Assembly (NCBI GenBank): GCA_012516855.1
Contig: JAAYWB010000060.1
Coordinates: forward strand, 1-64,000
Reading direction: 5' to 3'
Origin: Candidatus Cloacimonadota bacterium
GTDB lineage: Bacteria; Cloacimonadota; Cloacimonadia; Cloacimonadales; Cloacimonadaceae
DNA length: 64,000 bases
A program made the position numbers and the translations under genes. The notes below the pieces were generated by a model. The model saw only the letters and a program-made list of their open reading frames with translations, made no database searches and had not been told where the DNA came from. Positions 36,281 through 54,240 of this stretch are shown one piece after another. How positions within the stretch are numbered: position 1 is the first letter of the stretch; each line of letters begins with the position of its first letter.

Positions 36281-38071
36281 TCAGTGGGCTTCGTGCTTTT
36301 GGGTGACCTGTTCGACCACCTGGCCGCTGCTGACGGAGCGTTTGAAGTAGTAGGTGTGGAGCAGCTTGAGGGCGAGGGGGGAGTTGGGTTCGCCGAGGAA
36401 GCGCTCATAGATTTTGACGACTTCGGGGTTTTTGTGGGACTGACGCACAGGGAGGCTGCGGTCTTCCTCATAGAGGGAGAGGCCCCTGCGGGCGCGGGAC
36501 GCGATGTCGTTGCCATAGGGCTGTCCGCCGCCGCCGACGCAGCCGCCGGGGCAGGCCATGATTTCGATGAAGTGCCAGGGCGATTCGCCTTTGGTGGCGA
36601 GGCCTTCGCGCACTTGATCCATTACCTTGCGGGCGTTGGAAAGCCCGTGGGCGACCGCCACGCGGATTTCGCCGAAGCCGGGAACATCGACCGCGGCTTC
36701 CTTCACGCCTTCCAAACCGCGCACGGCGGTGATTTCAACGTCTTCCAGCTCGGTGCCGGTGACAAGGAAATAGGCGGAGCGGATAGCCGCCTCCATCACG
36801 CCGCCGGTGGCGCCAAAGATGGTGCCGGCGCCGGTATAGTAGCTCATGCCTTCGTCGGGCTCCTCTTCGGGGAGGTTGGCGAAATCGATGCCCGCTTCCT
36901 TTATCATGCGAATAAGTTCACGGGTGGTGAGCACATAGTCGGTATCCTGGAATCCGGAGTCACGGAGTTCGGGGCGCCGGGCCTCGAATTTCTTCGCGGT
37001 GCAGGGCATCACGGCCACAGAGACAATTTTAGCGGGGTCGATGCCGTGTTCCTGGGCGTAGTAGGTTTTGGACAGCACGCCGAACATGCTCATGGGTGAT
37101 TTGGCGGTGGAAACGCAATCCGCGAGGTCGGGATAGTAGGTTTCCATGAACTTGATCCAGCCTGGTGAGCAGGAGGTGATGAGAGGGCGTTTTTCGCCGG
37201 CTTTGAGCTTGGTTACGCATTCGGTGCCTTCCTCAAGGATGGTGAGGTCGGCGGTGAAGTTGGTGTCCATCACGCTGTCGAAGCCTATCTTGCGGAGGGC
37301 GGCATACATTTTCTTGGGGGTCACGGAGCCAAGGGGCAGGCCGAAATCCTCACCCAGGGAAACGCGGACGGAGGGGGCTTCCTGCACGATCACGTGTTTT
37401 TCGGGATCGAGGATGGCATCCCAAACCTCGTCAATCTCCCCGCGCTCGCGCAGGGCGCCGGTGGGGCAATAGACCGTGCACTGGCCGCAGTTCACGCAGG
37501 GGCTGTTGGCCATGCCGAGGCTGAAGGCGGTGTCAATATGGGAATCGATTCCGCGGTCGGCAAAGGTGAGGGCATAGACGGTCTGGGTTTCGTTGCAGAC
37601 GTTGATGCAGCGTCCGCAGGCGATGCATTTGTTCACGTCGCGGACGATGGAGAGGGAGCTGTCGTCAACAGGCTTTTTCACCAGAATGCTTGGCAGGGCT
37701 TCGGGATCCACGCCGAGGTTGTTTGCCAATGTTTGGAGCTCGCATTTGTTGTTTGCCACGCAGGTGGGGCAAACCACGTCGTGGTTGGAAAGGATCATTT
37801 CCACCAGGGTTTTGCGGTAAGCGCGCAGCTTCTTGGAGTTGGTAATGATTTTCATCCCTTCGGTCACCGGAGTGCAGCAGGCGCGCTTGGGAACGGGGCT
37901 TCCGGAGAGTTCAATCACACAGACGCCGCAATTTGCCGTGGGCGGCAAATCGGGATGGTAACACAGCCTGGGGATATAAATCCCGTGTTTGTCGGCGGCT
38001 TCGATGATTGTCATCGTATCCGGAACTTCCAGATGTTTGTCATCTATCCAGATATTTACTGTTTTAGCCAT
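36281..38071 (-). CDS. hydA: [FeFe]-hydrogenase catalytic subunit HydA/HndD (NuoG-like N-terminus)
   Basis: 596 aa, usual M3 architecture. Residues 1-80 are a [2Fe-2S] ferredoxin (C37, C48, C51, C65). H97-C101-C104-C110 is the His-Cys3 [4Fe-4S] site, and C149-C159 plus C192-C202 are two more clusters. The H-cluster loops are TSCSPGW (299-305), MPCTAKKFE (C357) and EIMACPGGCVGGGGQP (C507, C511). It oxidises or forms H2, and with NuoE/NuoF subunits probably couples NADH and ferredoxin. Position 302 is Ser where the classical motif has a second Cys (see findings). Last gene of the cluster, 17 nt after the second NuoF. Confidence 0.95.
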   Translation of the reverse strand: MAKTVNIWIDDKHLEVPDTMTIIEAADKHGIYIPRLCYHPDLPPTANCGVCVIELSGSPVPKRACCTPVTEGMKIITNSKKLRAYRKTLVEMILSNHDVVCPTCVANNKCELQTLANNLGVDPEALPSILVKKPVDDSSLSIVRDVNKCIACGRCINVCNETQTVYALTFADRGIDSHIDTAFSLGMANSPCVNCGQCTVYCPTGALRERGEIDEVWDAILDPEKHVIVQEAPSVRVSLGEDFGLPLGSVTPKKMYAALRKIGFDSVMDTNFTADLTILEEGTECVTKLKAGEKRPLITSCSPGWIKFMETYYPDLADCVSTAKSPMSMFGVLSKTYYAQEHGIDPAKIVSVAVMPCTAKKFEARRPELRDSGFQDTDYVLTTRELIRMIKEAGIDFANLPEEEPDEGMSYYTGAGTIFGATGGVMEAAIRSAYFLVTGTELEDVEITAVRGLEGVKEAAVDVPGFGEIRVAVAHGLSNARKVMDQVREGLATKGESPWHFIEIMACPGGCVGGGGQPYGNDIASRARRGLSLYEEDRSLPVRQSHKNPEVVKIYERFLGEPNSPLALKLLHTYYFKRSVSSGQVVEQVTQKHEAH

Positions 38072-38088
38072 TTCATATCCTCTTTATT

Positions 38089-39651
38089 TTACTTTTTTGT
38101 AATCGCTATGAATTCGTCTTTGAAGTATTCGACCGCGCTCCGGATCACCATCACGGGGGATTGGCCAAGGGCGCAGAAGCTGGTGGAGAACATGGTTTCG
38201 GAGATGGTGACCATGAGATCGACATCCTCCATGGTCCCTTCGCCCTTCTTGATTTTGGTTATCAGCCTGTAAAGCTGCTGGCAGCCGTTGCGGCAGGGCG
38301 CGCATTTTCCGCAGGATTCGTGGCGGAAGAAGCGCAGGATCGACCACAGCATGTCCACGATGCTCTGATGCTCGTTCATCACGAGGATGGCGCCAGAGCC
38401 GAGAACGGCGGCGTAATGCTTGAGGCTGGCATAGTCCATGTTCACGTCCAGCATCCGTTCCGGCAGGAAAACACCTGCCGCGCCGCCAACCAGGGCGGCC
38501 TTGAAGCGGAAGCCTTTTTTCATCCCGCCGGCATAATCGTTGATGATGGTGCGCAGGGTGGTGCCCATGTCAACTTCGCAGAGGCCTGGATGGGCGACGT
38601 CGCCGAGGATGGTGTAAACCTTGGTTCCTGTGGAATCCTGGGTGCCGTGGGCCCTGAAAGCATCGGCGCCTTCCTTGATGATGAAGGGTACGTTGGCCAG
38701 GGTTTCCACGTTGTTAACCACGGTGGGGCATTTCCAGAGGCCTTCGACTCCGGGGAAGGGGGGTTTCCAGCGCGGGTTGCCCCGGTTCCCTTCCAGGGAT
38801 TCGATGAGGGCGGTCTCTTCTCCGCAAACATAGGCCCCGGCGCCGATCTTTATGGCGATGTCGAGGTCAAATCCGCTGTCGAAGATGTTTTTTCCGATGA
38901 TGCCGTATTCGCGGCACTGGTCGATGGCTTTCTGGAGGCGCTCGATGCAGAGCTTGTATTCGCCGCGGATGTAGATCCAGGCTTTGGAGGCTCCCACCGC
39001 GCGGGCGCAAATCATCACACCTTCCAGCAACTGGTGGGGGTCGCCTTCCATAATCAGGCGGTCCTTGAAGGTTCCGGGTTCGCCTTCGTCGGCATTCACC
39101 ACCACGTATTTCTGGGGCGCGTCGATGGGGGCAGTGAAGCTCCACTTCACGCCGGTGGGGAAGCCGGCACCGCCGCGGCCTTGGAGGCCGGATTTTCTCA
39201 CTTCGCTGACGATTTCCATCGGCTGCATCCGGACGAGGGCCTTTTCCCAGGCTTCGTAGCCTCCGGCACCGATGTATTCGTCGATGCTTTCAGGATCGAT
39301 GATGCCGGAATTGCGGAGGACGATGCGGTTTTGGTAGTTGAGCTTGGGGGTGAATTTCCCTGTCGCGTCCAGCATCAGCCGGGTTACGGGACGTCCCTTG
39401 AGGAAATGCTCTTCCACGAGTTCGGGGATGTCCTCTGCCTTTATGTCTTGGTAACTTACGTTTTCCGGATAGACGGAGAGGCAAATCCCGCGGCCGAAAA
39501 AGCCCAGGGGGCCGGTCTCGAGGATGTTGATCTCTTCCTGGAGGTTGTATTTTGCCAGTTCGGCGCGGAGGGCTACGATGAAGTTTTCCACTCCGGCCAG
39601 TAGCGAGGTTTCATTTATGCCCACAAGGATGTGGCTGCGATAGAATTTCAT
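38089..39651 (-). CDS. NuoF-like diaphorase subunit, second copy, without N-terminal Fe-S cysteines
   Basis: 520 aa. FMN/NADH domain intact: GRGGAGFPTGVKW, NADEGEPGTFKDR, GAGAYVCGEETALIESLEG, with the C-terminal cluster ESCGKCAPCRNG and a later Cys in FCALGQS. The N-terminal ~95 residues keep the thioredoxin-like ferredoxin shape, but every ligand position has lost its Cys (ILVGINETSLLAG, ETGPLGFFGRG). The C-terminal two-cluster ferredoxin of the other NuoF is absent. ATG at 39651 with GGGGGA upstream; it overlaps its NuoE by 4 nt. Confidence 0.92.
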   Translation of the reverse strand: MKFYRSHILVGINETSLLAGVENFIVALRAELAKYNLQEEINILETGPLGFFGRGICLSVYPENVSYQDIKAEDIPELVEEHFLKGRPVTRLMLDATGKFTPKLNYQNRIVLRNSGIIDPESIDEYIGAGGYEAWEKALVRMQPMEIVSEVRKSGLQGRGGAGFPTGVKWSFTAPIDAPQKYVVVNADEGEPGTFKDRLIMEGDPHQLLEGVMICARAVGASKAWIYIRGEYKLCIERLQKAIDQCREYGIIGKNIFDSGFDLDIAIKIGAGAYVCGEETALIESLEGNRGNPRWKPPFPGVEGLWKCPTVVNNVETLANVPFIIKEGADAFRAHGTQDSTGTKVYTILGDVAHPGLCEVDMGTTLRTIINDYAGGMKKGFRFKAALVGGAAGVFLPERMLDVNMDYASLKHYAAVLGSGAILVMNEHQSIVDMLWSILRFFRHESCGKCAPCRNGCQQLYRLITKIKKGEGTMEDVDLMVTISETMFSTSFCALGQSPVMVIRSAVEYFKDEFIAITKK

Positions 39652-40106
39652 TGGTTCCCCCTTCTGATCCTGGCGATGATTTCCTCCACCCGTTCTTCGG
39701 TGAGGTCGCCGTAAACATCGTTGTTTACCATCATTACGGGAGCGTTTCCGCAAACTCCGAGGCAGGCGCAGAGTTCCAGGGTGAAAACCCCGTCTTTGGT
39801 GGTTTCGCCTGTTTTGACGCCGAGGAGTTCCCTGAGCTTGCGGAGGATGTTTTCGCTGCCTTTGATATAGCAGGGCGGCGATTCGCAGAGGCGGATGATG
39901 TTCTTTCCCCGGGGTTTGGTGCTGTACATGGTGTAGAAGGTCAGCACGCCGTAGATGTGGTTGGGCGGCAGATCCAGATATTCCGCCACCGTCTGCACCG
40001 CCTCTTCGGAGATGTAATGCTGGGGATGGGTGTCCTGTATCTCGTGCAGGATGCAGATCAGGTTGTCTTTGTCAGGAGTGTATTTGGTGCAAATCTCTTT
40101 GTACAT
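39648..40106 (-). CDS. NuoE-like [2Fe-2S] subunit, second copy
   Basis: 152 aa. Thioredoxin-like [2Fe-2S] protein with CESPPC and CACLGVC ligand pairs. It carries electrons between NuoF and the hydrogenase. Overlaps the following NuoF by ATGA and follows the first NuoF by 12 nt. HIYGVLTFYTMYSTKPRG is the typical NuoE helix region. Confidence 0.94.
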   Translation of the reverse strand: MYKEICTKYTPDKDNLICILHEIQDTHPQHYISEEAVQTVAEYLDLPPNHIYGVLTFYTMYSTKPRGKNIIRLCESPPCYIKGSENILRKLRELLGVKTGETTKDGVFTLELCACLGVCGNAPVMMVNNDVYGDLTEERVEEIIARIRRGNQ

Positions 40107-40118
40107 GGGTACTCCTTG

Positions 40119-41966
40119 TCATTCTTCTTCTGATTTGGCGAGGTTTTCCGCGTGCCTGACCACTTCGGGGTGCATTCCGGGAATCCTGTCGATGGCCTTT
40201 ACAGGACAGACATCCTGGCAGTTCCCGCATTTAACGCAATCCACTTGGTTGATGGTGAATTTTTCCTCGCGTGAACCGCTGATGCAGGTCGCCGGGCATT
40301 TGCGTGAGCAGAGCGAGCAGCCGATGCAGCGGTCTTTGTCGATGCTGAAATGGAAGAGGTCTGTGCAGACCTTGTTGGGGCAGGATTTGTCGCGGATATG
40401 GGCTTCATATTCTTCGCGGAAATAGCGGAGGGTGGAAAGGACGGGATTCGGCGCTGTCTGGCCAAGCCCGCAGAGCGAGAGCTTGCTGATGGTTTCGCCA
40501 AGGCGCAGCAGTTCGTCGAGGTCGCTTTCCTTCCCCTGGCCTTTGGTGATGCGGTCCAGGATGTTGTACATCTGCTTGAGGCCGAGTCGGCAGGGTGGAC
40601 ATTTTCCGCAGGATTCGTCCACGCAAAAATCCACGAAGAACTTGGCCACGTTGACCATGCACTTCTGGTCGTTCATCACGATGACTCCGCCGGAACCCAT
40701 CATGGCGCCGCGTTCCTTGAGGCTTTCATAGTCCACCGGCACGTCGAGGTGTTCGACGGTGAGGCAGCCTCCGGAAGGGCCTCCGAGCTGGACGGCTTTG
40801 AACTTGTGTCCGTCGGTCATTCCGCCGCCTACGTCAAAGATCATCTCACGCAGGGTGATTCCCATCGGAACTTCCACCAGACCGGTGTTTTGGATGTCGC
40901 CGGTGAGGGCGAAGACCTTGGTGCCCTTGCTGGTCTCGGTTCCCATGGAGGAAAACCATTCCGCGCCTTTGAGGAAGATGGTGGGAAGGTTGGCCATGGT
41001 TTCCACGTTGTTCACCACGGTGGGCTTTTCCCAAAGTCCCTTCACTGCCGGGTAGGGCGGTTTGGGGGTGGGGTTTCCGCGCTCGCCTTCCAATGAATGG
41101 ATTAGGGCCATTTCCTCTCCGCAGACAAAGGCTCCGGCGCCTGTGCGGACTTCGGCGTCGAAAGAGAAATCGGAGCCGAAGATGTTTTCGCCCATCAGGC
41201 CAACTTCCTTGGCCTGGGCGATTGCCTGTTTGATGCGTTTGATGGCTAGCGGATATTCCGCGCGGATGTAGAAAAAGCCTTTGGAGGCTCCGATGGAATA
41301 GGCGCCCAGCATCATCCCTTCCAGGATGCGGTGGGGGTCGCCTTCCAGTAGGGAGCGGTCCATGAAGGCGCCGGGGTCTCCCTCGTCACCGTTGCAGATG
41401 ATGTACTTCTGGTCGGCTTTGATGTCGTGCACCAGTCTCCACTTGATGTGGGTGGGGAAGCCGCCGCCGCCGCGTCCGCGGAGGCCGGATTTTTTCACCA
41501 CCTCGATGGCTTCTTCAGGCTTCATCTGGGTGAGCACGGTTCCCAAAGCCTCGTATCCGCCGGTGGCGATGTATTCTTCCAGGCTTTCGGGGTCGATGTA
41601 GCCGCAGTTGGCAAGGGCGACCTTGACTTGCTTCTGGTAAAAGGGCACTTCCTTTTGGGCGGCGATCAGCCTTTCCTCTTCCTGAAGCATCAGGCGCTGG
41701 ACTGGACGGCCTTTCACAAAATGTTCGGATACGATCTCCTCCACATCCTCCACCTTCACGTGTTTGTAGAAGGTGCCTTCGGGATAGACCACCATGACAG
41801 GGCCGTAGTCGCAGGGGCCCATGCAGCCGGTTTCGATGATGTTCACTTCGTTGGCGATGCCTTTATCCGCCAGAACTTCGTGAAACCGTTCCTTGATTTT
41901 CAAAGCGCCTGCAGACACACAGCCGGAGCCGCAGCAGATCAGCAGGTCAATTCTTTTCAGAGACAT
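40119..41966 (-). CDS. NuoF-like diaphorase subunit HndC/HydB, full domain set
   Basis: 615 aa. The N-terminal [2Fe-2S] thioredoxin-like domain is intact (C11, C16, C48, C52). The FMN/NADH domain follows with GRGGGGFPTHIKW, NGDEGDPGAFMDR and GAGAFVCGEEMALIHSLEG. Then a [4Fe-4S] site ESCGKCPPCRLG and, at the end, two ferredoxin motifs CIGCSLCSRKC and CVKCGNCQDVC. This is the layout of the bifurcating HydB/HndC subunit. It oxidises or reduces NAD(P)H via FMN and passes electrons to the clusters. Preceded by HndB (15 nt). Confidence 0.94.
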   Translation of the reverse strand: MSLKRIDLLICCGSGCVSAGALKIKERFHEVLADKGIANEVNIIETGCMGPCDYGPVMVVYPEGTFYKHVKVEDVEEIVSEHFVKGRPVQRLMLQEEERLIAAQKEVPFYQKQVKVALANCGYIDPESLEEYIATGGYEALGTVLTQMKPEEAIEVVKKSGLRGRGGGGFPTHIKWRLVHDIKADQKYIICNGDEGDPGAFMDRSLLEGDPHRILEGMMLGAYSIGASKGFFYIRAEYPLAIKRIKQAIAQAKEVGLMGENIFGSDFSFDAEVRTGAGAFVCGEEMALIHSLEGERGNPTPKPPYPAVKGLWEKPTVVNNVETMANLPTIFLKGAEWFSSMGTETSKGTKVFALTGDIQNTGLVEVPMGITLREMIFDVGGGMTDGHKFKAVQLGGPSGGCLTVEHLDVPVDYESLKERGAMMGSGGVIVMNDQKCMVNVAKFFVDFCVDESCGKCPPCRLGLKQMYNILDRITKGQGKESDLDELLRLGETISKLSLCGLGQTAPNPVLSTLRYFREEYEAHIRDKSCPNKVCTDLFHFSIDKDRCIGCSLCSRKCPATCISGSREEKFTINQVDCVKCGNCQDVCPVKAIDRIPGMHPEVVRHAENLAKSEEE

Positions 41967-41981
41967 TGATCAACCTCCAGC

Positions 41982-42347
41982 TCAGTCGCCAGTCGCAACG
42001 ACGTAATCGGAGACAACCCTGCCATTGACGATGTGCTCGACGACCACCTTTCTCACCTTGTCCGGATTCATGTTTCCATAGGTGACTTTGGCTTTGCCCT
42101 CTTCGATGAGGTCAACGACCGGTTCCATCGAGGAAAGGCCCTTTTCACCGGTCTGGGTTACCAAAACGTCGGTGAGGTTGCGGTTGGAAATCTCTTCCAG
42201 AAAGGTCTTCATGACTTCACGGGCGCCCATCGCGATGCCGGATGTTCCCATCCCCACCACGATTTTGACGCGCATGTTGCCGCCACGAAGCTTCATCTCT
42301 TCCTGGGCTTTTTCACGGATTTTTTTCAGGTCTGCAAGTGTTTTCAT
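41982..42347 (-). CDS. HndB-like thioredoxin-fold ferredoxin-like protein lacking cysteines
   Basis: 121 aa. Resembles the thioredoxin-like ferredoxin domain (VVGMGTSGIAMGAREVMKTF) found in HndB of NADP-reducing hydrogenase. It contains no cysteine at all, so it cannot hold a [2Fe-2S] cluster. A structural or regulatory role in the complex is more likely. ATG overlaps the preceding stop (TGATG). Confidence 0.85.
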   Translation of the reverse strand: MKTLADLKKIREKAQEEMKLRGGNMRVKIVVGMGTSGIAMGAREVMKTFLEEISNRNLTDVLVTQTGEKGLSSMEPVVDLIEEGKAKVTYGNMNPDKVRKVVVEHIVNGRVVSDYVVATGD

Positions 42348-42919
42348 CAGACATTCTCCATGTTTGTATTTTGTATTCCTTCATTTAAAGATTGGTCGAT
42401 GTACTCAATCACGTCCGGATAGGTGAGCGGAATATCGCCCAATTCCTCTTTGATGGCGGCAGTTTCAAAGTGGAAGGAGTTTTCCTTGCCGCCGTCGTGG
42501 TTGATGAGGATGATTTGGAAATCCACTTCCGGATGGCCGACTATCGCTCCCAGCAAAGTGGCTTTGAGATTGCCCAGGGGCATGCGGTCGATGTGGTTGA
42601 GCCCGAAATCCACCGTTAGCACGGTTCCGAAGCCGGGCTGGCTGCTCATGTTGAAAGAGCCGTTGCTGAGTTCCGCGTTCTGCTTGAACAGCGGGATGCC
42701 CAGCCCCACTTTCTTTTCTCGCTGCGCCTTGCTGGTGTAAAAAGGGTTTTGGGCCATGGCCAGGGTCTCGCTGTCCATCCCCGAGCCGTCGTCCTCAACG
42801 ATAAGCCGGAGAAGGTTTTCGCCCACATCTTTGATGACGCGGATCTTCACGTTTCTGGCCTTGGCCCGGACGCTGTTTTCGATGATGTCCAGCAGATGCA
42901 GGGAAATGTCTTGCATCAC
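42347..42919 (-). CDS. Small GHKL-type ATPase (histidine-kinase-like), copy 2
   Basis: 190 aa. Only an ATP-binding domain of the GHKL fold is seen: N-box LLDIIENSVRAKA, G1 EDDGSGMD, G2 VGLGIPLFKQNA, and GFGTVLTVDF. There is no sensor, phospho-acceptor His domain or membrane helix. Such stand-alone ATPases are known in hydrogenase operons of anaerobes. It sits between NuoE (6 nt) and HndB (1-nt overlap), so a role tied to the complex is inferred. Confidence 0.85.
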   Translation of the reverse strand: MMQDISLHLLDIIENSVRAKARNVKIRVIKDVGENLLRLIVEDDGSGMDSETLAMAQNPFYTSKAQREKKVGLGIPLFKQNAELSNGSFNMSSQPGFGTVLTVDFGLNHIDRMPLGNLKATLLGAIVGHPEVDFQIILINHDGGKENSFHFETAAIKEELGDIPLTYPDVIEYIDQSLNEGIQNTNMENV

Positions 42920-42925
42920 GCCGGC

Positions 42926-43408
42926 CTATTGATATTTTTTGAGTATTTCGGACACCTTTTCCCGAGTGTCCACCCGGCCGTAGGTTTCTTCACCGATCAC
43001 GAAGACCGGAGCCAGCGAGCAGGCTCCAACGCAGCGAACCGCGCTCACGGTGAAGCGCAGGTCGGCTGTCGTCTCGCCCATTTTAACGCCCAGTTCCTCT
43101 TCGATCATCCGGGCCAGGCGGGGCGCGCCTTTCACAAAGCAGGCCGTGCCCATGCACAGGTTCAGGGTGTATTTGCCCCGAGGGATCATGGTGAAGAAGT
43201 TGTAGAACGTCACCACTCCGTAGATCTTGTTGGCCGGGATGTTCATTTCCCGGGAGATGAATTCCTGCACTTCAACGGGCAGGTAGCCAAAAATCTCCTG
43301 AGCCTGGCGCAGAACCTCGATGAGGGGATTGCGCAGGCCGCGGCTGGCTGCGATGACGGCTCTCAGCCGGTCATACAGCGGATTGTCTTGCTGTGTAGCG
43401 GGAGTCAT
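42926..43408 (-). CDS. NuoE-like [2Fe-2S] subunit HndA/HydC, first copy
   Basis: 160 aa. Ligand motifs CMGTAC and CVGAC with the helix KIYGVVTFYNFFTMIPRG. Pairs with the NuoF at 40119-41966. Only distantly similar to the second NuoE (39648-40106), so these are not recent duplicates. AGGAGG precedes the ATG; the PHP gene ends 21 nt upstream. Confidence 0.94.
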   Translation of the reverse strand: MTPATQQDNPLYDRLRAVIAASRGLRNPLIEVLRQAQEIFGYLPVEVQEFISREMNIPANKIYGVVTFYNFFTMIPRGKYTLNLCMGTACFVKGAPRLARMIEEELGVKMGETTADLRFTVSAVRCVGACSLAPVFVIGEETYGRVDTREKVSEILKKYQ

Positions 43409-43429
43409 TAACTCCTCCTGTTTTATTTT

Positions 43430-44167
43430 TTATACTAAAATCATCCTGTCATCAAGGCCCAACGCCGCCTTGGCAAGCTCTTCCACCTTGGGAGCCCCTG
43501 CCAGAACCCGGCTGAAGCCAGAGCCCATATCGGCCAGGTAATGCGCGTCTGAACTGCGCAGCCAGCTTTTCCCGGCAAGTTCCGGATGGCTGCTGAGCAA
43601 ACGCGCTAGGTCCGCTTTGGCTGAGAGGCCGAGGAGCTCGAAATGAGGCTCCGCGGGCAAAAAACCCAGTTGTCCGATAAGGCTGTTGACCGTGGCGTCC
43701 ACATGGGCCGGAACGCAGTATCCTCCATGGTTTCGGGCCACTTCGACAGCGGTGCTGAGGTCCCAAATGGAGGAATTCATCAGCGCTCTAAGTTCCATTC
43801 CTAAAATGTTCTCATTTTCGTCAATGATAACTTGATCACCAAAAAATTCCGGGTCGTTGTCCAGCGGCAACAGCGAGGCATAAAGCTCGCCGCCAAAGGA
43901 TTTGGCCGCCGCCGGGTCGTCAAAATAGACCAGCAAATGGATTTCCTCGGCGGTCTGCATTTCCACGCCCCAGGTGAAAGCCAGCCCCTCCCTTTCTGCG
44001 ACGGCGGAATAAGCAGGGCAGTTGGCAAGGGAATTGTGGTCCGTGATGGCCATCCAGTCAATCCCGCAACTCTTGGCCCGCGCAACGACTTCCCGGGGCG
44101 ACATTTCCAGGCCCCCGCAGGGTGAAAGCACGGAATGGATGTGCAGGTCCGCCTTGAACCATCGCAT
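43430..44167 (-). CDS. PHP-domain metal-dependent hydrolase
   Basis: 245 aa. PHP metal motifs: DLHIHSVLSPCGG near the start, ITDHN, then a late CVPAHVDA and RSSDAHYLADMG. Close to the polymerase/histidinol-phosphatase family of phosphoesterases. The substrate is unknown. The gene is embedded in the hydrogenase cluster, 3 nt after the DRTGG gene. PHP proteins have been seen in this neighbourhood in other anaerobes (recollection). Confidence 0.85.
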   Translation of the reverse strand: MRWFKADLHIHSVLSPCGGLEMSPREVVARAKSCGIDWMAITDHNSLANCPAYSAVAEREGLAFTWGVEMQTAEEIHLLVYFDDPAAAKSFGGELYASLLPLDNDPEFFGDQVIIDENENILGMELRALMNSSIWDLSTAVEVARNHGGYCVPAHVDATVNSLIGQLGFLPAEPHFELLGLSAKADLARLLSSHPELAGKSWLRSSDAHYLADMGSGFSRVLAGAPKVEELAKAALGLDDRMILV

Positions 44168-44170
44168 CGG

Positions 44171-44539
44171 CTAGATCAACTGATGCAGCATCCCGTAAAG
44201 GATTCCCGCCAGGCTGAAGGTGTCCAGCGGGCTGGATACCAGACAGATTCCCTCGCTGGCGGCTTTTTCCACCACCATCTCGTCCGGGGTGTTGCCTTTG
44301 GCGAAAACTATCGCCGGAATTCCGGTGAGCGAAGCCACGGCCACGGTGTTCAGGTGCTTCATGATGGTTATCCAGGCCTGGCCTTCCCGGGCGGAGCCCA
44401 TAACGTCGCTGAGCATATCGCAAACGTAGCCGCCGCTCAGGGAAACCTGTTCGGGGTCGACTTGGGGGGTGTGGTTGGTGCCTTCGATGGCGGTCATTAA
44501 ATCTGCCAGTGTTATCGTCATCTCTGTATCCTGTGTCAT
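44171..44539 (-). CDS. DRTGG-like domain protein, copy 2
   Basis: 122 aa. Alpha/beta domain of the DRTGG type, found in HPr kinase and phosphotransacetylase regulators: LSGGYVCDMLSDVM, WITIMKHLNTVAVASLTGIPAIVFAKG, EGICLVSSPLDTFSLAG. Its start overlaps the divergent hydrogenase gene by 4 nt (ATGA). A downstream ATG at 44521 with AGGA upstream is an alternative. Probable small-molecule sensor; inferred. Confidence 0.78.
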   Translation of the reverse strand: MTQDTEMTITLADLMTAIEGTNHTPQVDPEQVSLSGGYVCDMLSDVMGSAREGQAWITIMKHLNTVAVASLTGIPAIVFAKGNTPDEMVVEKAASEGICLVSSPLDTFSLAGILYGMLHQLI

Positions 44540-45819
44540 TCCTGTTCTTCTTCTTTGGAGTGGCGCTTGAGCAGCACCACGCAGTCGTCGATGGTGGCTT
44601 TGCCCTGCACGATGTCCTCTGCCAGTGCGTAGCAGGTAGGCGAGCCGCAGGCGCTGCAGTTCAGGCCTGGCAGGGAGGTGAGTATCTCATTTATTCTCTT
44701 CATCTTAAAGATGGCTGTCTTGATGTCTTTGTCCAGTTCCATGATGGAGCGCGGGGTCAGGGGCACCACGTCGAATTCCCCGGCGCGGTAAAGGTTGTCC
44801 AGCTCGTGCACGTCTGCCTCGCTGTTGGTGCTTTCCTTTATCATCTTTTTGATGCGGCTCATCGCCACGAAGGGGTTTTCCACGTTGAAGGAACCGCCCA
44901 CACAGCCGTTGGTGCAGCTTCGGAGCACGATGTAGTCGTATTGGTCCAGATAGTGGTCTTCCACGCGGGAAAGGATTTCCATCACGTTGTCCACGCCGTT
45001 CACGGAAAGCGCCCTGATGTCCTCGCAGTCAACCAGATCGGCCTGCACGCCGGAAAGCGCCCAGGTGAGGCCTTTGGGAAAAGTTTGTATCCGGGGCGGA
45101 TGATTTTGCAGTTTTTTGATGTGTTCGTGCACCCTGCCGTAAATCATGCCGATGGAGAAGGCGCCGTCCTGAAGGTGTTTGTAGGCTCCCTCCGGCTGGT
45201 GCACGGCGGTCACGTGGGCGGGGCAGGGCACGATGAGGAAAATTCCGATATCCTCTTCTGCCAGGCCGGTTTCCGCCTTGATCCTGTCGCGCAGGTAACT
45301 GGTGAGGATGCTCATCGGGGCTTCGAGGTGGAAGAGGTTTGGCAGCAGCGAGGGGTATTTGAGCTGGATTAGCCGCACCACGGTGGGGCAATTGCTGCTC
45401 AGGATCGGCCGCGTGTTCCGTTTGTGGCGGATGTAGTCGCGGATCATGCCGATCATGAATTCCGTGACCATAGCCTCTTCCTGCACTTCGTCAAAGCCCA
45501 GTTCGTAGATGGCCTGCTTGGCCACTTCATAGGAAACGTCTTCGGTGAACTGCCCGAAATAGGAGGTGGAAACCACCGCCACCTTATACTTGAACCTGTG
45601 GATTATGTCCAGGGGGTCGCTGCGGGGGATGATTGCATGGAACTCACATGTTTCCAGGCATCTGCCGCAGTCAACGCAGCGGTTGGCGTCGATTCGCGCC
45701 TTGCGGTTGCGCACCCGGATGGCCTCTGTGGGGCAAACCCTCACGCAGGCGGTGCAGCCGGTACAGTTGTCTTCCAGTATCCGGAGCGCGTGGTAGTATT
45801 GTGTTTCCTTTTTATCCAT
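44536..45819 (-). CDS. Divergent [FeFe]-hydrogenase-like protein (putative sensory type)
   Basis: 427 aa. Two ferredoxin clusters (C19, C22, C25, C29 and C48, C51, C54, C58). An H-cluster-like domain has L1 SSNCPTVV (C144), L2 VPCPAHV (C199) and L3 SCTNGCVGG (C302, C306). C-terminal Fes-type [4Fe-4S] motif C388, C391, C396, C413. Loop motifs depart strongly from catalytic HydA (no KxxE after L2, no GGGxP in L3), as in the low-activity, putatively sensory group. It overlaps the small ATPase gene by 8 nt and the DRTGG gene by 4 nt. A redox or H2 sensor feeding the ATPase is inferred; electron carrier is the alternative. Confidence 0.85.
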   Translation of the reverse strand: MDKKETQYYHALRILEDNCTGCTACVRVCPTEAIRVRNRKARIDANRCVDCGRCLETCEFHAIIPRSDPLDIIHRFKYKVAVVSTSYFGQFTEDVSYEVAKQAIYELGFDEVQEEAMVTEFMIGMIRDYIRHKRNTRPILSSNCPTVVRLIQLKYPSLLPNLFHLEAPMSILTSYLRDRIKAETGLAEEDIGIFLIVPCPAHVTAVHQPEGAYKHLQDGAFSIGMIYGRVHEHIKKLQNHPPRIQTFPKGLTWALSGVQADLVDCEDIRALSVNGVDNVMEILSRVEDHYLDQYDYIVLRSCTNGCVGGSFNVENPFVAMSRIKKMIKESTNSEADVHELDNLYRAGEFDVVPLTPRSIMELDKDIKTAIFKMKRINEILTSLPGLNCSACGSPTCYALAEDIVQGKATIDDCVVLLKRHSKEEEQE

Positions 45820-46312
45820 CTTGCCTGAAAAAGATCAAAAACTCCAGCGTTGTGGTGTCGCCGGCTGCCGAACTAATATGCAGCGCGTCGGTGTTCTTTT
45901 TGATGTTTGGCAGGCCCAGCCCAGCTCCGAATCCCATTTCCCGGACCATGTCGTCCGCGGTTGAATAGCCCGGAACCATCGCCTGTTCGATGTTTCCAAT
46001 CCCCGGCCCGTTGTCCTGGAAGATCATGTGGATGAGGTCCGGATAGACGTGGCTTAGCATCGCCCCGCCCGATGAGTGTGCCGCAACGTTGATTTCGGCT
46101 TCATAGGCCGCAACGGCCACCCGGCGCAGGATTTCCGGGTTCACGCCCAGGCGCTTGAGCAGGTTTTTCACATCTGCCGAACCTTTTCCGGCGCTGTTGA
46201 AATCCTTTTCCGGAATCAGCGAATCCAGGGAAACGTCGGCTTCGGGAGGCTCCGCGAAATGTTTTTTCACGGCTTCCTCAAAGCCTTCGTGGATATGCCA
46301 GAATTCTGCCAT
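45812..46312 (-). CDS. Small RsbW-like GHKL ATPase, copy 1
   Basis: About 166 aa. RsbW/anti-sigma-like ATP-binding fold: N-box EAEINVAAHS, G1 QDNGPGIG, G2 GFGAGLGLPNIKK. ATG 46312 starts one base after the stop of the DRTGG gene; an upstream ATG at 46342 would overlap by 29 nt and has no ribosome site. Predicted serine kinase or ATP switch paired with the divergent hydrogenase. No anti-anti-sigma partner lies in view. Confidence 0.85.
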   Translation of the reverse strand: MAEFWHIHEGFEEAVKKHFAEPPEADVSLDSLIPEKDFNSAGKGSADVKNLLKRLGVNPEILRRVAVAAYEAEINVAAHSSGGAMLSHVYPDLIHMIFQDNGPGIGNIEQAMVPGYSTADDMVREMGFGAGLGLPNIKKNTDALHISSAAGDTTTLEFLIFFRQDG

Positions 46313-46313
46313 C

Positions 46314-46661
46314 TCAGATTTTGCAGCTTCGCAGTCCGGCATTGAACAGCAACCCGCTGGAACGGTACATGGTTAGGTTGCTGCAGAATAGAGGCAGGTT
46401 GCGTTCCCTGGCCATCTCTATTACTTCGTCCAGGGGGCGTTTGCCGCGCACGAACACGATGCCCACGATGTCGATCATGTCCGAAAGCCTGATGACTTGG
46501 TTGTTGGTAAGGCCGGTCAAAAGCAGGGTCGGTTCTTTGGTGCACATAAGTATGTCGCTGATAAGGTCGGACGAGAAGGCGCAGGGCACCTCCACATCCA
46601 AATCGGCTTCGGGGGTCAGCACTTCCGCGTCGAGGAGCTGTACGATATCCTTTAATGTCAT
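46314..46661 (-). CDS. DRTGG-like domain protein, copy 1; first gene of the hydrogenase cluster
   Basis: 115 aa. Same fold as the second copy: VPCAFSSDLISDILMC, LLLTGLTNNQVIRLSDM, GIVFVRGKRPLDEVIEMA. No catalytic motif. Start with AGGTGA upstream. A TTGACT at 46714-46719 (minus) may belong to the cluster's promoter, but the -10 is unclear. Confidence 0.78.
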   Translation of the reverse strand: MTLKDIVQLLDAEVLTPEADLDVEVPCAFSSDLISDILMCTKEPTLLLTGLTNNQVIRLSDMIDIVGIVFVRGKRPLDEVIEMARERNLPLFCSNLTMYRSSGLLFNAGLRSCKI

Positions 46662-47115: not shown

Positions 47116-49293
47116 TTATTTCATCAGCATCATTTTGCGGCTTTCGCTATGGCTGCTGGTGGTGAGGCGATAGAAGTAGATGCCGCTGGAGACGCTGTTG
47201 CCGCCGTTGTCGGTTCCGTTCCAGACATAGCTGTGGCGGCCGAATTCATGGTTGCCTTCAGCCAGGGTTTTCACCATCTGGCCTCTGACGTTGTAGATCT
47301 CAAGGCGGGCGGGCCCGGAAGCCGGCATGTCGAAACTGATGGTGGTTTCAGGGTTGAAGGGGTTGGGATAGTTTTGCAGCAGAAGCCTTGTCACGGAGGG
47401 CATGGTAGGATCGTCGGCAGCGGAACCAAGCGGGAAAACGATCTTGAGTTCCATGAACATCACTTCGCCGCCGTCCGGGGTGTTATGGTAGGGGGGAGAA
47501 TTCACGTTTGAGCCCCAAGTGAAGTCATTGTAGAACATCACGCCGATCTTGCCAACCTTATTCGGGCCTTGCATGCCGGTGTAGATCACTTTGTCCGCGG
47601 GATAAACGTACATCGGTTTGATGCCGGCCAGTTGAGGGGTTTCCACATTGTTCAGGATGATGGGTTCGCTCCAGGTGTTGCCATTGTCAGGGGTAACTGA
47701 AATGTAGATTTCGGGGGTCTGGGCGAAGTTGATATAATCGGTATCGGAGTAGTAATTGTACATCCGGGCGCGTTGGGAATCCTGCCAGATGCAAACCATC
47801 ATGCCCTGATCGTTGGGCTCGGAGACTTTCACACCATTGTAGTGGAACATCATCGCGTCGTTGTGGGCAGATGTATCCCAGTGGGGGAAAGGCCAGTCAG
47901 AGAACATCATCGGATAGAATCCGCCTGCTCCGTCATCGCCGTATTGGTCAACTTCACCCCAGGGCGCTTCCAAGTCCCAGGGGGTGAAAGTGCCGTTGAA
48001 ATCATCGTTGGGATCCTGCTGGGGAAAGATGTCGCGGATCATGAATTCGTGCGTGTTGATGTCAAAGACGAATTCTTTTACGAACTGCAGGGCGGGATAG
48101 TAGTAACCGCTGTAGGCATGCAGGCCCCAGAGGCTGGGAACGTGCAGCTTGCCATCAGGGCCTATGGTGGCGTTGACATGGCCGGAGTTGTAAATTCCCC
48201 AGTACAATTCGCCGTTGTCACCATAGGGGATATCGCCGGCGTCAGGATTGGTGTAATAGCCAGTGGTGTCATTGGGGGCGCCGTTGGGATTGATGGAGGG
48301 GATGTTGCCGAATCCGCTGTAGCGGGTCCAGGTGCCCTGGCCGTAATTCGGACAGACAAAGACGTCCATGTCTGCTTCGTCCAGGTGGTTGTCCGCGGCG
48401 TCATAGGCGACATGGTGTCCAGCCCAGTAGAGGTTTCCGGCATTGTCCACGGCGAGAGTGCCTGCCGGGCGGCGGAATTCAACCGTGTCGTGGTTCCAAG
48501 CATCCTGCTCAGGAATGGAGGTGTGTGTCCAGTTCATTGGGGTGCCCATCTCTATATCGTCACCATTGAAATCGGCATAGGCAATGTACATGTTTTCGCT
48601 GGGGTTGCCGTTCATGGCGTGTGAGATCTTGTTGCGCATGCCAACATAAACGCGGCGTTTTCCATCTACTGGCGAGGGACCGATCACTATGCAGGGCCAG
48701 ATGAATTCGTTGTCGGTGGTGGCTGTTCCATTGGGCGGGGTGATGGTGGTGGGTGCGTCTGCAACGAGGCAGATATCGTTGAAAAGGCCTGAGATGCCTG
48801 CGATGAAGGCGTCCGAAGTGAACTCGGTTTCGTTCTCGGCATCAGAGTCGGCATTGGCATGCCAGGCGTAGAGGGGCTTTCCGGAAACCGGATCGACCGC
48901 TACACCGGGGAAACCTTCATGGTTTTGCACACTGGTGATTTCGTTGTTGTTGATCACATTGCCGGCAGGGTCCAGGTAGGCATAAAACACGCGGCGGGTG
49001 CTGTTGGCCTGGCGGCGTCCATGATAGGTCATGAAATATCCGCCCCCTGCCGCGTCCGGGATCACTAACAGGGGAAGCTCATTGTAGCTGCCGATCATGT
49101 AATCATAGTAATTGGTGATGATGGCGGTGGGATTTTTTGTGAAGGTATAGCTTGGCACATCTCGCTGCGCGGGCATCCTAATGCCCTTGGGGCTGGGCAG
49201 CGGTTTCAGTTGCGGTCCGGGGACCATGGTCTCAGCCAGCACCAGGGCTGGCAGAAGGGCCAGGACCATCATGAATAAACAAATGCGTTTCAT
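47116..49293 (-). CDS. Exported beta-propeller-like protein with Asp-box and sorting tail, paralog 3 of 3
   Basis: 725 aa. ATG at 49293 with GGAG seven bases ahead; signal peptide FMMVLALLPALVLAE. Conserved with its two neighbours: AIITNYYDYMIGSYN, GGGYFMTYHGRRQ, GPSPVDGKRRVY, PNYGQGTWTR and the Asp-box TPDNGNTWSEP, a sialidase/propeller motif. Sorting tail [17 protein letters not shown] ... GIYFYRLTT ... KMMLMK. This is the most diverged of the three. The function is not known; binding or cleavage of polysaccharide is a guess. It has its own terminator. Confidence 0.8.
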   Translation of the reverse strand: MKRICLFMMVLALLPALVLAETMVPGPQLKPLPSPKGIRMPAQRDVPSYTFTKNPTAIITNYYDYMIGSYNELPLLVIPDAAGGGYFMTYHGRRQANSTRRVFYAYLDPAGNVINNNEITSVQNHEGFPGVAVDPVSGKPLYAWHANADSDAENETEFTSDAFIAGISGLFNDICLVADAPTTITPPNGTATTDNEFIWPCIVIGPSPVDGKRRVYVGMRNKISHAMNGNPSENMYIAYADFNGDDIEMGTPMNWTHTSIPEQDAWNHDTVEFRRPAGTLAVDNAGNLYWAGHHVAYDAADNHLDEADMDVFVCPNYGQGTWTRYSGFGNIPSINPNGAPNDTTGYYTNPDAGDIPYGDNGELYWGIYNSGHVNATIGPDGKLHVPSLWGLHAYSGYYYPALQFVKEFVFDINTHEFMIRDIFPQQDPNDDFNGTFTPWDLEAPWGEVDQYGDDGAGGFYPMMFSDWPFPHWDTSAHNDAMMFHYNGVKVSEPNDQGMMVCIWQDSQRARMYNYYSDTDYINFAQTPEIYISVTPDNGNTWSEPIILNNVETPQLAGIKPMYVYPADKVIYTGMQGPNKVGKIGVMFYNDFTWGSNVNSPPYHNTPDGGEVMFMELKIVFPLGSAADDPTMPSVTRLLLQNYPNPFNPETTISFDMPASGPARLEIYNVRGQMVKTLAEGNHEFGRHSYVWNGTDNGGNSVSSGIYFYRLTTSSHSESRKMMLMK

Positions 49294-49491
49294 GGTTTTC
49301 TCCATATCCTTAGTTGTTTGGTTCAAATTAAACAGCTTTGCCCCGAAGAGGGCGAAACCTTATCAAAAGTGCGAACAACGCTACCGGCCATTGGCCTGTC
49401 TGTCAAGAAGAACCATTAACCGATGAAAGTAATGTCTTTTAGGCTGCGAATAATTGTCAAGCAGAAAATCCACGGACAGAAATGATAGGAG

Positions 49492-49518
49492 AAAAAAACC
49501 CGGGTGCGGGCACCCGGG
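49492..49518 (-). terminator. Intrinsic terminator of paralog 2
   Basis: 8-bp stem CCCGGGTG/CACCCGGG with a 4-nt loop (49499-49518), then seven T on the minus strand. Nearly identical to the terminator at 51941-51967. Confidence 0.88.
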
Positions 49519-49546
49519 CAATTGAATCAGTGTATCTTGCCAAGTT

Positions 49547-51739
49547 TTACTTCATCAGCATCATTTTTTTGGTCTCCACGTTGCCGTTGGCGGTGAGGCG
49601 GTAGAAATAGATGCCGCTGGAGACGTTGCGACCGTCGTTGTCGGTGCCGTTCCAGACGAAGCTATGCTTGCCGAACTCCAGGTTTCCGTCCGTGATGGTT
49701 TTGACCAGCTGGCCCTTAACGTTGTACACGGAAAGGTTGGCATGGCCGGACTTCGGCATGTCGAAACCGATGGTTGTTTCCGGATTGAAGGGGTTGGGGT
49801 AGTTCTGATGCAGCATGCGGGTGATGGCAGGGGCGGTGTTTTCGCCATCGGCAGAGCCGATTGGGAAAACGATCTCGAGCTCCATGAACATCACTTCACC
49901 GCCGTCCGGGGTGTTATGGTAGGCAGGAGTGATGGCATTGGAGCCCCAAGTGAAGTCATTGTAGAACATAAAGCCAAGTTTTCCAACCTTGTGCTGGTCT
50001 TGCATGCGGGTGAAGATCACTTGGTCCGCGGGATAGACCCACATGGGTTTGATCCCGGAGAACTGGGGTGTTTCGACATTGTTGAGAATGATGGGCTCGC
50101 TCCAGGTGATGCCGTTGTCCGGAGATACCGCAATGAAGATCTCGGGAGTGTTGGCAAAGGCGGCGTAATCGGTGTCGGAATCAGCGTTAAACCAACGGGC
50201 ACGTTGGGAATCCTGCCAGACCGCGGCCATCATGCCTTTGTCGTTGGCATTTGTGATCTTGACGTTGTTGTAGTGGAAGAACATGAGTTCGCCGTGGGCG
50301 GATTGATCCCAGTGGGGGAAGGGCCATTTGAGGCCGGGATGCCCGCCGCCGGCGGCAGCTACAGTCAGGTAGTAATTGCCGTCATCAGCCTGGAAGTATT
50401 CCGGGGTGCCCCAGGGCGCTTCCATATCCCAGGGCACAAAGCACGGGTTGAATGTGTCATCGGGGTGCTTCTGAGGAAACACGTCTTTAACTGTAAATTC
50501 CTGGGTTGCGGGGTCGAAAACGAATTCCTTGATGACCTGGAATCTTGGCCAGTATATGCCGTCTTTGGTGGACTGGGTCCAAATGCCCAAAACGTGGATG
50601 CGGCCAAGATTGTCCAGACTGGCATTGAGGTGGGAGGAGTTGGCAATGGCCCAGACGAGAACGGAGTCGGGATAGGGGATACTGTCTTCGTTCACGAAAA
50701 GACCTTCGTTGCCACCCTGCTGTAAAGGGGGGTTGCAGGAAGGTATCCAACTGTAGTCGCTGATGCGGGTCCATTCACCCTGTCCGTAGTTCGGGCAGAT
50801 GAAGACATCCAGATCGGGTTCGCGGATGTTGGTCTCGCCATCAGAATCAACGGCGAAGTGGTAACCGGCATAATAGACGTTGCCGGCGTTGTCGGTGGTG
50901 AGGCTGTGGAAGGGACGGCGCCACTGGGCGTCCACGTTCCATTGGTTCATTTCGGGGATAGTGACATGGTTCCAGGTAAGGGGCACGTTGGTCTCGATAT
51001 CGATACCATCGAAATCGGTATAGGCGATCATCAGGTTTTCCGAGGGGCCTTGAGTTCCAGTGACATAGTTCCTGGTTGCCAGGTACACCCTTCTCTTGCC
51101 GGCAACCGGCGAGGGTCCGATTTGCGCGGTGGGCCAGATGAACTCGTTGTTTTCGGTGGTGACTCCGCTGGGTGAAGTGATAGTGATGGGGTTGTCGATG
51201 GCCACTTGGATATTGAAAAGGCCCGAGATGCCTGCCATGAAAGCGTCGGAAGCTACTTCAACTTCGTTTTCGGCATCAGTGTCCTTGTTGCAGTGCCAGG
51301 CGTAGAATGGCTTTCCGGACACGGGATCGACAGCCGTGGTGCAGTAACCTTCGTGATTCTGCACGCTGGTGATTTCGTTGTTGTTAATCACACTCAACAC
51401 GCCTTGGTCATCGTGGTTGATGTAGGCGTAGAAAACCCGACGGGTACTGTTGGCCTGGCGGCGTCCATGATAACTCATGAAATATCCGCCGCCGGCGGCA
51501 TCAGGGATGACACGCAGCGGCAGGCCGTTGTAGCTGCCTATCATGTAGTCGTAATAATTGGTGATGATGGCGGTGGGCTCTTTTGTAAAGGTATAGCTTG
51601 GCATATCTCGCTGCGCGGGCATCCTCATGCCCTTGGAGCTGGGCAGCGGTTTCAGGTGCGGTCCGGGGACCATGGTCTCAGCCAACGCTAAGGCTGGCAG
51701 GAGAACCAGGATCATCATGAACAAACAAATGCGTTTCAT
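49547..51739 (-). CDS. Exported beta-propeller-like protein with Asp-box and sorting tail, paralog 2 of 3 (mosaic)
   Basis: 730 aa. The ATG at 51739 has GGAGA upstream. The leader region and first ~40 residues (MKRICLFMMILVLLPALALA) are almost those of paralog 3. From about AIITNYYDYMIGSYNGLPLR on, the protein is close to paralog 1 (NHEGYCTTAVDPVSGKPFYAWHC, GEWTRISDYSWIPS, LKWPFPHWD). Asp-box SPDNGITWSEP and the same sorting tail are kept. It has a strong own promoter (51880-51908) and terminator. Confidence 0.82.
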   Translation of the reverse strand: MKRICLFMMILVLLPALALAETMVPGPHLKPLPSSKGMRMPAQRDMPSYTFTKEPTAIITNYYDYMIGSYNGLPLRVIPDAAGGGYFMSYHGRRQANSTRRVFYAYINHDDQGVLSVINNNEITSVQNHEGYCTTAVDPVSGKPFYAWHCNKDTDAENEVEVASDAFMAGISGLFNIQVAIDNPITITSPSGVTTENNEFIWPTAQIGPSPVAGKRRVYLATRNYVTGTQGPSENLMIAYTDFDGIDIETNVPLTWNHVTIPEMNQWNVDAQWRRPFHSLTTDNAGNVYYAGYHFAVDSDGETNIREPDLDVFICPNYGQGEWTRISDYSWIPSCNPPLQQGGNEGLFVNEDSIPYPDSVLVWAIANSSHLNASLDNLGRIHVLGIWTQSTKDGIYWPRFQVIKEFVFDPATQEFTVKDVFPQKHPDDTFNPCFVPWDMEAPWGTPEYFQADDGNYYLTVAAAGGGHPGLKWPFPHWDQSAHGELMFFHYNNVKITNANDKGMMAAVWQDSQRARWFNADSDTDYAAFANTPEIFIAVSPDNGITWSEPIILNNVETPQFSGIKPMWVYPADQVIFTRMQDQHKVGKLGFMFYNDFTWGSNAITPAYHNTPDGGEVMFMELEIVFPIGSADGENTAPAITRMLHQNYPNPFNPETTIGFDMPKSGHANLSVYNVKGQLVKTITDGNLEFGKHSFVWNGTDNDGRNVSSGIYFYRLTANGNVETKKMMLMK

Positions 51740-51879
51740 GGTTTTCTCCATATCCTTAGTTGTTGGGTTCAAATAGTCGGCTTCGCCTCTGCTGGGACGG
51801 AACCTCTTCACACGGTACGAAATACTATCGGCCATTGGCCTGCCTGCCTGCCAAAACGAAACCAAAAACCGACATATAT

Positions 51880-51908
51880 ATTATATTCAAGCTGCGCATA
51901 ATTGTCAA
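51880..51908 (-). promoter_or_regulatory. Strong consensus promoter of paralog 2
   Basis: On the minus strand, TTGACA (51908-51903), 17 nt, TATAAT (51885-51880). Both hexamers are perfect. The start codon is ~140 nt away, giving a leader that includes the palindrome GGCCAATGGCC (51830-51840). Confidence 0.85.
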
Positions 51909-51940
51909 GCAGAAAATCCGCAACAAGAAATAATAGGCAC

Positions 51941-51967
51941 AAAAAAACCCGGGTGCAGGCACCCGGG
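51941..51967 (-). terminator. Intrinsic terminator of paralog 1
   Basis: 8-bp stem CCCGGGTG/CACCCGGG (51948-51967), loop CAGG, then seven T on the minus strand. It lies 33 nt upstream of the next promoter's -35. Confidence 0.88.
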
Positions 51968-51995
51968 CTATTGAATCGGTGTATCTGGCGAAGTA

Positions 51996-54209: not shown

Positions 54210-54240
54210 TCTTACCTCCATTATTTATCGAGTCATTTGT

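Follow-up and report, generated by a model that had tools for sequence, protein, structure and literature searches.

A putative sensor-to-kinase cassette with an exchangeable hydrogenase-like input beside NAD(H)-linked flavin enzymes of Cloacimonadota

What is the role of a hydrogenase-like protein, here called HydS, that is encoded between an ATPase and a DRTGG-domain protein within the operon of another hydrogenase? The question is raised by a 64,000-nucleotide stretch of contig JAAYWB010000060.1 (hereafter the window) from a Candidatus Cloacimonadota bacterium, whose genome is 98.8% complete (G000; in the following G denotes genomes, L loci and f families). A single minus-strand operon in the window runs in the order DRTGG-A, ATPase-A, HydS-like, DRTGG-B, PHP, NuoE, ATPase-B, ferredoxin-like, HydB, NuoE, HydB, HydA (Table 1), and an earlier note had proposed that the divergent hydrogenase in it reads H2 or redox state and passes this on through an ATPase switch that regulates HydA, the DRTGG proteins being putative ligand sensors. 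From a comparison of about 125 Cloacimonadota genomes and of loci from Clostridia and Bacteroidota we conclude, with moderate confidence, that the locus encodes a regulatory cassette leading from a sensor to a kinase, in which the sensor can be swapped and which would act on NAD(H)-linked enzymes of the NuoE/HydB (NuoF-type) kind; what the cassette senses is furthermore probably the redox state and not only hydrogen. Its core would consist of DRTGG-A, ATPase-A, DRTGG-B and PHP, with HydS as one plug-in input.

The co-occurrence and order of these families, which the earlier note had proposed as a check, indeed recur in HydS loci with full flanks. In Cloacimonadota such loci carry DRTGG-A and ATPase-A directly upstream of HydS and DRTGG-B and PHP directly downstream, the only exceptions being G040, in which PHP lies on another contig next to NuoE, and G080, in which the order is rearranged to DRTGG-B, a fused DRTGG-A::ATPase-A and HydS, while all other deviations are contig ends. 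Evidence from other phyla comes from two records of a plasmid collection, which are probably chromosomal contigs, and from published papers. In the Clostridia record (Subdoligranulum, L070) the core genes and HydS, five in all, are divergent to NuoE, ATPase-B, ferredoxin, HydB and HydA, and in the Bacteroidota record (Parabacteroides, L071) DRTGG-A, ATPase-A, HydS, DRTGG-B, PHP and ATPase-B form a stand-alone operon to which HydABC and NuoE are not adjacent. Outside these two records full-length matches to PHP or ATPase-B in the plasmid collection were either not found or remote, and a search of viral contigs gave no match to HydS. Chance adjacency and contamination were dropped as explanations, since the same order is found over many families and in two other phyla, and a role in anti-phage defence was dropped as there was no PADLOC match. 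In the Subdoligranulum locus ATPase-A and HydS are also separated by about 0.76 kb of sequence (L070:8236-8995) that matches no cassette protein, and in a single genome a SpoIIE-type phosphatase that ends in an RsbW-like ATPase is encoded downstream of the cassette and HydB (L077:15468-17447).

By sequence and fold ATPase-A is a candidate switch kinase of the SpoIIAB/RsbW type, and it is predicted to have kinase activity. It carries the N-box YEAEIN and the G1 and G2 boxes DxGPGI and GFGAGLGLPN, and the Glu and Asn of the N-box, the former acting as catalytic base in SpoIIAB, are invariant across the alignment together with the G boxes. The Parabacteroides protein furthermore matches SpoIIAB in a sequence search of the PDB (3.5e-7), and the model of the fusion protein described below overlays SpoIIAB (1til, template modelling score 0.82 of the target; also 1l0o). 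ATPase-A hence has the Bergerat fold and boxes of SpoIIAB, RsbW and RsbT, but it differs from them in having no STAS partner in the operon, in being paired or fused with DRTGG or CBS domains and in scoring below the cut-off of the SpoIIAB equivalog family TIGR01925. That such a kinase would sequester a sigma or anti-anti-sigma factor, and that the cassette would thereby control transcription, is suggested by SpoIIAB and RsbW being its nearest relatives and by the SpoIIE-type phosphatases that adjoin group C sensory hydrogenases, but sigma, STAS and PP2C genes are not conserved in the cassette among the loci compared and the genome of the window holds one STAS match over the cut-off, making a transcriptional partner switch an improbable explanation.

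The two DRTGG proteins both score below the Pfam gathering threshold of their family, although the motifs SDLxSDxL, GLTNxQ and FVRGK of DRTGG-A are conserved in 59 relatives and the DRTGG half of the AlphaFold model of the fusion, which represents DRTGG-A only, matches the DRTGG structures of CBS pyrophosphatases (3l2b, 3l31); DRTGG-B gave no match in a sequence search of the PDB. Common to both is an SDxxSD-like motif, which in the model follows a strand and opens a helix, a location that presumably resembles, by analogy, the phosphorylated Ser site of STAS proteins. In two genomes, G080 and G120 (L096 and L115), DRTGG-A and ATPase-A are a single protein of 275 amino acids, the two fusion proteins being 91% identical, and this fusion is the strongest direct evidence that the DRTGG protein and the ATPase form a physical pair. 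In the 21-row alignment of the fusion, rows 3-14 come from neighbouring but unfused genes, read through the intervening stop codon, and both this alignment and that of ATPase-B leave out the Subdoligranulum and Parabacteroides rows.

The notion that HydS feeds into this core, rather than the core assisting HydS, stems from loci that have lost it. In ten loci (L101-L110) there is no HydS between ATPase-A and DRTGG-B, and ATPase-A instead carries an N-terminal CBS pair (PF00571, 100.5 bits); PHP is also present in these loci except L101, which is cut by a contig end. In L112 and L113 HydS is gone with nothing in its place, and the same is probably true of L114, in which ATPase-A is cut by a contig end. 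Wherever flanking sequence is available, HydS was always accompanied by ATPase-A and a DRTGG gene. As HydS is lost with the core kept and never the converse, HydS appears to be an input of the core and, as judged from these sequences, one that may be missing or exchanged for a CBS pair on the kinase. The exchange is reminiscent of the CBS-DRTGG region of CBS pyrophosphatases (PMC10742508), which shares the DRTGG fold and likewise brings a DRTGG domain and a CBS pair together, as the HydS-less variant does by placing its CBS pair next to DRTGG-A; the DRTGG proteins of the cassette are however free-standing and regulate no attached pyrophosphatase. HydS could alternatively be a further subunit of the enzyme complex, engaged in catalysis or electron transfer, while the ATPases power the flow of electrons, as its eight N-terminal and four C-terminal cluster cysteines are nearly invariant among 60 HydS and as it is encoded with the enzyme. 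However, the enzyme genes occur without HydS in L103-L110, L126 and L127, HydS is found apart from the enzyme in L071, L076 and L094, and we know of no GHKL ATPase that drives electron transfer, so that this alternative seems very improbable indeed.

The HydS of the window has two N-terminal 4Fe-4S clusters, a [FeFe]-hydrogenase H-domain and a C-terminal CX2CX4CX16C cluster, and a profile search gave no match to a PAS domain. We assign it to group D on the basis of this architecture, its motifs and the separation of HydS from the group C outgroup (support 100/100) in a tree that does not include the reference sequence, TamHydS. Group D (M2e) proteins have been described as "putative sensory" hydrogenases with a kinase-like ATPase neighbour, encoded upstream of bifurcating hydrogenases (PMC8163306, PMC3561251), and how they transmit a signal is an open question (PMC8163306). 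The window protein has the architecture, the C-terminal motif, the lack of a PAS domain and of C299, the ATPase neighbour and the location upstream of a multimeric bifurcating-type hydrogenase in common with TamHydS-type proteins. It differs in that position 353 is Val, as in most Cloacimonadota, and position 497 is Arg in its lineage; the exchange of M353 for Ser or Thr is reported to be well conserved in group D (PMC8163306) and is thus a trait that the window lineage lacks, Thr being found in L070, L071, L095 and L096. Relatives of the window protein moreover also occur beside formate dehydrogenases and in genomes without maturases. The group C (M2f) sensory hydrogenases found in L072 and L073 similarly place a hydrogenase-like sensor beside a member of a kinase/phosphatase switch, but with a PAS domain in the group and a SpoIIE phosphatase instead of a kinase.

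Does HydS then sense hydrogen? In the strict form of this view HydS has a complete H-cluster at which H2 is bound, and the signal reaches the expression or activity of the hydrogenase through the ATPases. It is in agreement with the presence of HydE, HydF and HydG in the window genome and of all four H-cluster cysteines (C300, C355, C499 and C503 in CpI numbering) in its HydS, and with the slow H2 turnover and H2-dependent changes in secondary structure of TamHydS, the characterised group D enzyme (PMC8163306, PMC13104023). However, among the 46 HydS-bearing genomes with a completeness of 90% or more and a contamination of 5% or less, HydF, HydG and a group A HydA are all present in 34, one or two of them are missing in six, and all are missing in six more (G043, G060, G080, G092, G097, G098; 93-100% complete), in which HydE was not found either by a search that was positive in G000 and G021. 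Gaps in the assembly would account for a gene missing singly, but hardly for four genes missing together in six genomes of such completeness. HydS is full-length in G043, G060, G080 and G092 and split or cut by a contig end in G097 and G098; G119 was dropped as a further hydrogenase-less genome on account of 8% contamination, although its maturases are missing too. Without maturases, known biology predicts that the di-iron subcluster is not made, and binding of H2 alone is therefore unlikely to be the function of the class. In addition, C355 is replaced by Ser in HydS of five lineages that all adjoin formate dehydrogenase (L065/L083, L069/L085, L075, L081, L091) and that fall in at least two places of the tree, and the proton relay residue 299, Asn in the window, is never Cys among the 60 HydS. 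We therefore consider strict H2 sensing unlikely. As to the reading of H2 or redox state put forward earlier, its hydrogen half is not supported as proposed in view of the six maturase-less genomes and seven formate dehydrogenase loci, although H2 may still be read in G000, which has the maturases and keeps the four H-cluster cysteines. That redox state is probably read rather than H2 alone follows from the cassette adjoining formate dehydrogenases in bacteria without hydrogenases or the machinery for assembling their active site. Tentatively, and with somewhat less confidence than for the cassette itself, we extend this to group D as a class, whose members would be iron-sulfur redox sensors and not obligate H2 sensors, feeding interchangeably into a kinase/DRTGG/PHP cassette by which flavin enzymes of the NuoEF type (hydrogenase, formate dehydrogenase, Hdr-type) are controlled, functioning with no di-iron site where maturation has been lost and replaceable by a CBS pair on the kinase.

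The partner enzyme varies as well. In the family of the window it is HydABC, but in families f6, f7, f8 and parts of f9 the last gene encodes an NAD-linked formate dehydrogenase (TIGR01591, over the cut-off), and seven of the loci examined close in this way. In G043 contigs L089 and L116 both break inside PHP and would, if neighbours, reproduce the window layout with formate dehydrogenase in place of HydA. The CBS variant adjoins NuoE, ferredoxin, HydB and, contig permitting, a protein that combines a 2Fe-2S domain with HdrA-like parts (NF040770, 820 bits, under the cut-off), and in G080 the partner is a NuoG-like protein. Over these swaps NuoE and HydB are the usual constants, as is ATPase-B except in the fusion locus of G080, and where clusters are split ATPase-B remains with NuoE, ferredoxin and HydB (G046, G037, Subdoligranulum). 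The proposal that HydA is the regulated target accordingly finds no support, HydA being the variable subunit, and NuoE/HydB would be the more natural target. The link is however not absolute given the stand-alone cores, NuoE not being found beside the Parabacteroides copy. Some of these partner loci are of interest in themselves. Two of the formate dehydrogenase genes (L080:137-2827, L091:10329-12000) are interrupted in frame by a TGA codon (NVDHCARL-TGA-HSSTVAGLA), the pattern that a selenocysteine would give. The Hdr-like clusters of L101-L110, with NuoE, ferredoxin, HydB and a 2Fe-2S/HdrA-like protein of 1,090 amino acids and with FrhB-, MvhD- and HdrA2-like genes in single loci, possibly encode an undescribed NADH-linked Hdr complex. 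Directly after the cassette in L096 (10306-17224), NuoE, HydB, a NuoG-like molybdopterin protein and two NfnAB-like genes make up a possible composite flavin-bifurcating locus.

Is ATPase-B a regulator or an assembly factor? Its ATPase domain starts around residue 5 and is followed by a conserved alpha/beta domain of about 80 residues, and the nearest folds found by Foldseek are the ATPase domains of MutL, Hsp90 and histidine kinases; annotation as a histidine kinase was ruled out, there being no DHp domain with a phosphoacceptor His. The likeness to MutL and Hsp90 and the position of its gene between NuoE and ferredoxin/HydB would agree with the GHKL ATPases and DRTGG proteins being chaperones by which the NuoE/HydB flavoprotein complex is put together or restored to activity. 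The exchange of HydS for CBS domains, however, better suits a sensor than a chaperone, the Parabacteroides copy does not adjoin NuoE/HydB, and G015 (99% complete) and G033 (86%) keep NuoE, HydB and HydA with no match to HydS, DRTGG or ATPase-A in the genome, and the enzyme genes there adjoin neither PHP nor ATPase-B. What does remain in both is a C-terminal remnant of ATPase-B, read from the sequence in front of the ferredoxin gene (L126:12864-13090; L127:6571-7031), and G015 has a broken ferredoxin gene as well. The cassette is thus dispensable for retaining the HydABC genes, and the joint loss of the core and ATPase-B with HydABC kept fits an accessory regulator and not an essential assembly factor, so that a role in assembly or repair appears quite unlikely. 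The earlier note held that relatives keeping a working cluster without its ATPase and DRTGG genes would refute its reading, and on this the outcome is mixed: G015 and G033 keep the HydABC genes in this way, but HydS, the DRTGG proteins, the ATPases and PHP have gone together in them, leaving the ATPase-B scar. Its view of one functional unit with an ATPase switch is, on the other hand, strengthened by the invariant core, the fusion, the stand-alone copies and this joint loss. In G069 ATPase-B is kept while DRTGG-A has decayed, and a decayed DRTGG-A scar lies at L129:5683-6018.

A mechanism can be sketched from these observations. The iron-sulfur chain of HydS would register how far the ferredoxin/NADH/H2 couple is reduced, and H2 too where an H-cluster is held, and the state of HydS would set ATPase-A, the switch kinase, working as a unit with DRTGG-A. 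DRTGG-B and PHP would complete a reversible switch, and ATPase-B, sited with NuoE, ferredoxin and HydB, would most likely deliver the output by adjusting the enzyme after translation. PHP keeps the metal-site motifs DLHxH, DHN, GxE, EEIH, AHxD and SDAH in an alignment of 58 sequences, and ATPase-A might phosphorylate a DRTGG protein at the conserved SDxxSD with PHP as the reversing phosphoesterase, although we regard this particular pairing as doubtful.

Several points weigh against the regulatory cassette as proposed. Reduction of the C-terminal HydS cluster has been tested as the signal and reported against (PMC13104023). The relatives of PHP in profile searches are mostly nucleases and nucleotide phosphatases, and a protein phosphatase role is a guess. 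The STAS protein is the usual substrate of SpoIIAB/RsbW kinases, and the want of conserved STAS and PP2C genes in the cassette hence counts here as well, as do the STAS match and one SpoIIE phosphatase elsewhere in the window genome. Finally, the AlphaFold model of the fusion (predicted local distance difference test, pLDDT, 81; predicted template modelling score 0.69) forms both domains but leaves the linker disordered, and as it comes with no inter-domain error no interface is claimed.

Group D hydrogenases, their ATPase neighbour and a near-whole operon of this kind are already on record. The last of these is Halsa_1862-1871 of Halanaerobium hydrogeniformans (PMC4237134), annotated as HydA, NADH dehydrogenase, ferredoxin-like, histidine-kinase-like ATPase, NuoE, PHP, iron-sulfur hydrogenase protein, iron-sulfur cluster protein, anti-sigma-type kinase and an unidentified open reading frame, which by this published annotation matches nearly the whole operon in order, but with one NADH dehydrogenase gene where the window has two NuoE and two HydB; its function was not analysed. 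What is added here is the order, the fusion, the swaps, the losses and the maturase-less HydS, and in the open-access literature we came across no account of the DRTGG and PHP parts in this setting, of the variants with formate dehydrogenase or CBS domains, or of HydS in genomes that lack the maturases. The comparison thereby names likely signalling partners of group D hydrogenase-like proteins, one pair of which (DRTGG-A and ATPase-A) occurs naturally as a fusion, suggests that the target is NuoE/HydB and not HydA, and offers natural test cases in HydS without H-cluster assembly, the core without HydS and HydABC without the cassette. If correct, it would reveal an unrecognised reversible layer of control on NAD(H)-linked flavin enzymes that are central to fermentation and syntrophy, and one open to experiment, as only a few small soluble proteins would be needed.

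Table 1. Genes of the hydrogenase operon in the window, in order of transcription.
Feature	Position	Strand	Basis
DRTGG-A, 115 aa (amino acids), single-domain	46314..46661	-	PF07085 20.3 bits, under the gathering cut-off of 25.2; motifs kept in 59 relatives
ATPase-A, 176 aa, SpoIIAB/RsbW-type Bergerat ATPase, candidate Ser/Thr switch kinase	45812..46342 (likely start 46312)	-	HATPase_c_2; TIGR01925 36.7 bits, under the cut-off of 135
HydS-like, 427 aa, group D / M2e architecture	44536..45819	-	Fe_hyd_lg_C 80.9 bits; PF04060 54.2 bits
DRTGG-B, 122 aa, second single-domain DRTGG protein	44171..44539	-	PF07085 21.8 bits, under the gathering cut-off of 25.2
PHP-family phosphoesterase, 245 aa	43430..44167	-	PF02811 42.4 bits, over cut-off
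NuoE/HydC-type 2Fe-2S thioredoxin-like subunit, enzyme side	42926..43408	-	PF01257 155.3 bits
ATPase-B, 190 aa, GHKL ATPase	42347..42919	-	HATPase_c 51.4 bits; AlphaFold pLDDT 87; Foldseek
Small thioredoxin-like 2Fe-2S ferredoxin relative	41982..42347	-	NF041612 40.6 bits, under cut-off
HydB/NuoF-type flavoprotein subunit 1, 615 aa	40119..41966	-	Sequence; kept beside the cassette in most loci
Second NuoE-type subunit	39648..40106	-	Sequence
HydB/NuoF-type flavoprotein subunit 2	38089..39651 (start inferred at 39651)	-	Sequence
HydA, catalytic [FeFe]-hydrogenase, NADH-dependent (A6)	36281..38071	-	NF040763 795.9 bits, cut-off 765

From DRTGG-A to ATPase-B the genes in Table 1 overlap by 29, 8 and 4 nucleotides and are then separated by 3, 21 and 6, and 21 nucleotides is the largest intergenic gap in the whole operon. 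Since ATPase-A of relatives usually begins with MAEYW, its start is likely 46312, which would reduce the first junction to 1 nucleotide. The earlier description of 42926-46661 as six genes with two ATPases is right in the number of genes and in that all the families named occur in the operon, but only one ATPase lies in this interval, the second being encoded outside it at 42347-42919 with a NuoE-type subunit inside instead.

The enzyme part of the operon (36281-41966) is unusual in holding two different HydB-type and two NuoE-type genes within one hydrogenase operon, and the doubled HydB/NuoE pair is also seen in the formate dehydrogenase version (L091, L116). Upstream of the operon, at 47116-54221 on the minus strand, lie three long, clearly similar paralogues in tandem (736, 772 and 741 amino acids), each of which ends in a sorting-type C-terminal domain.

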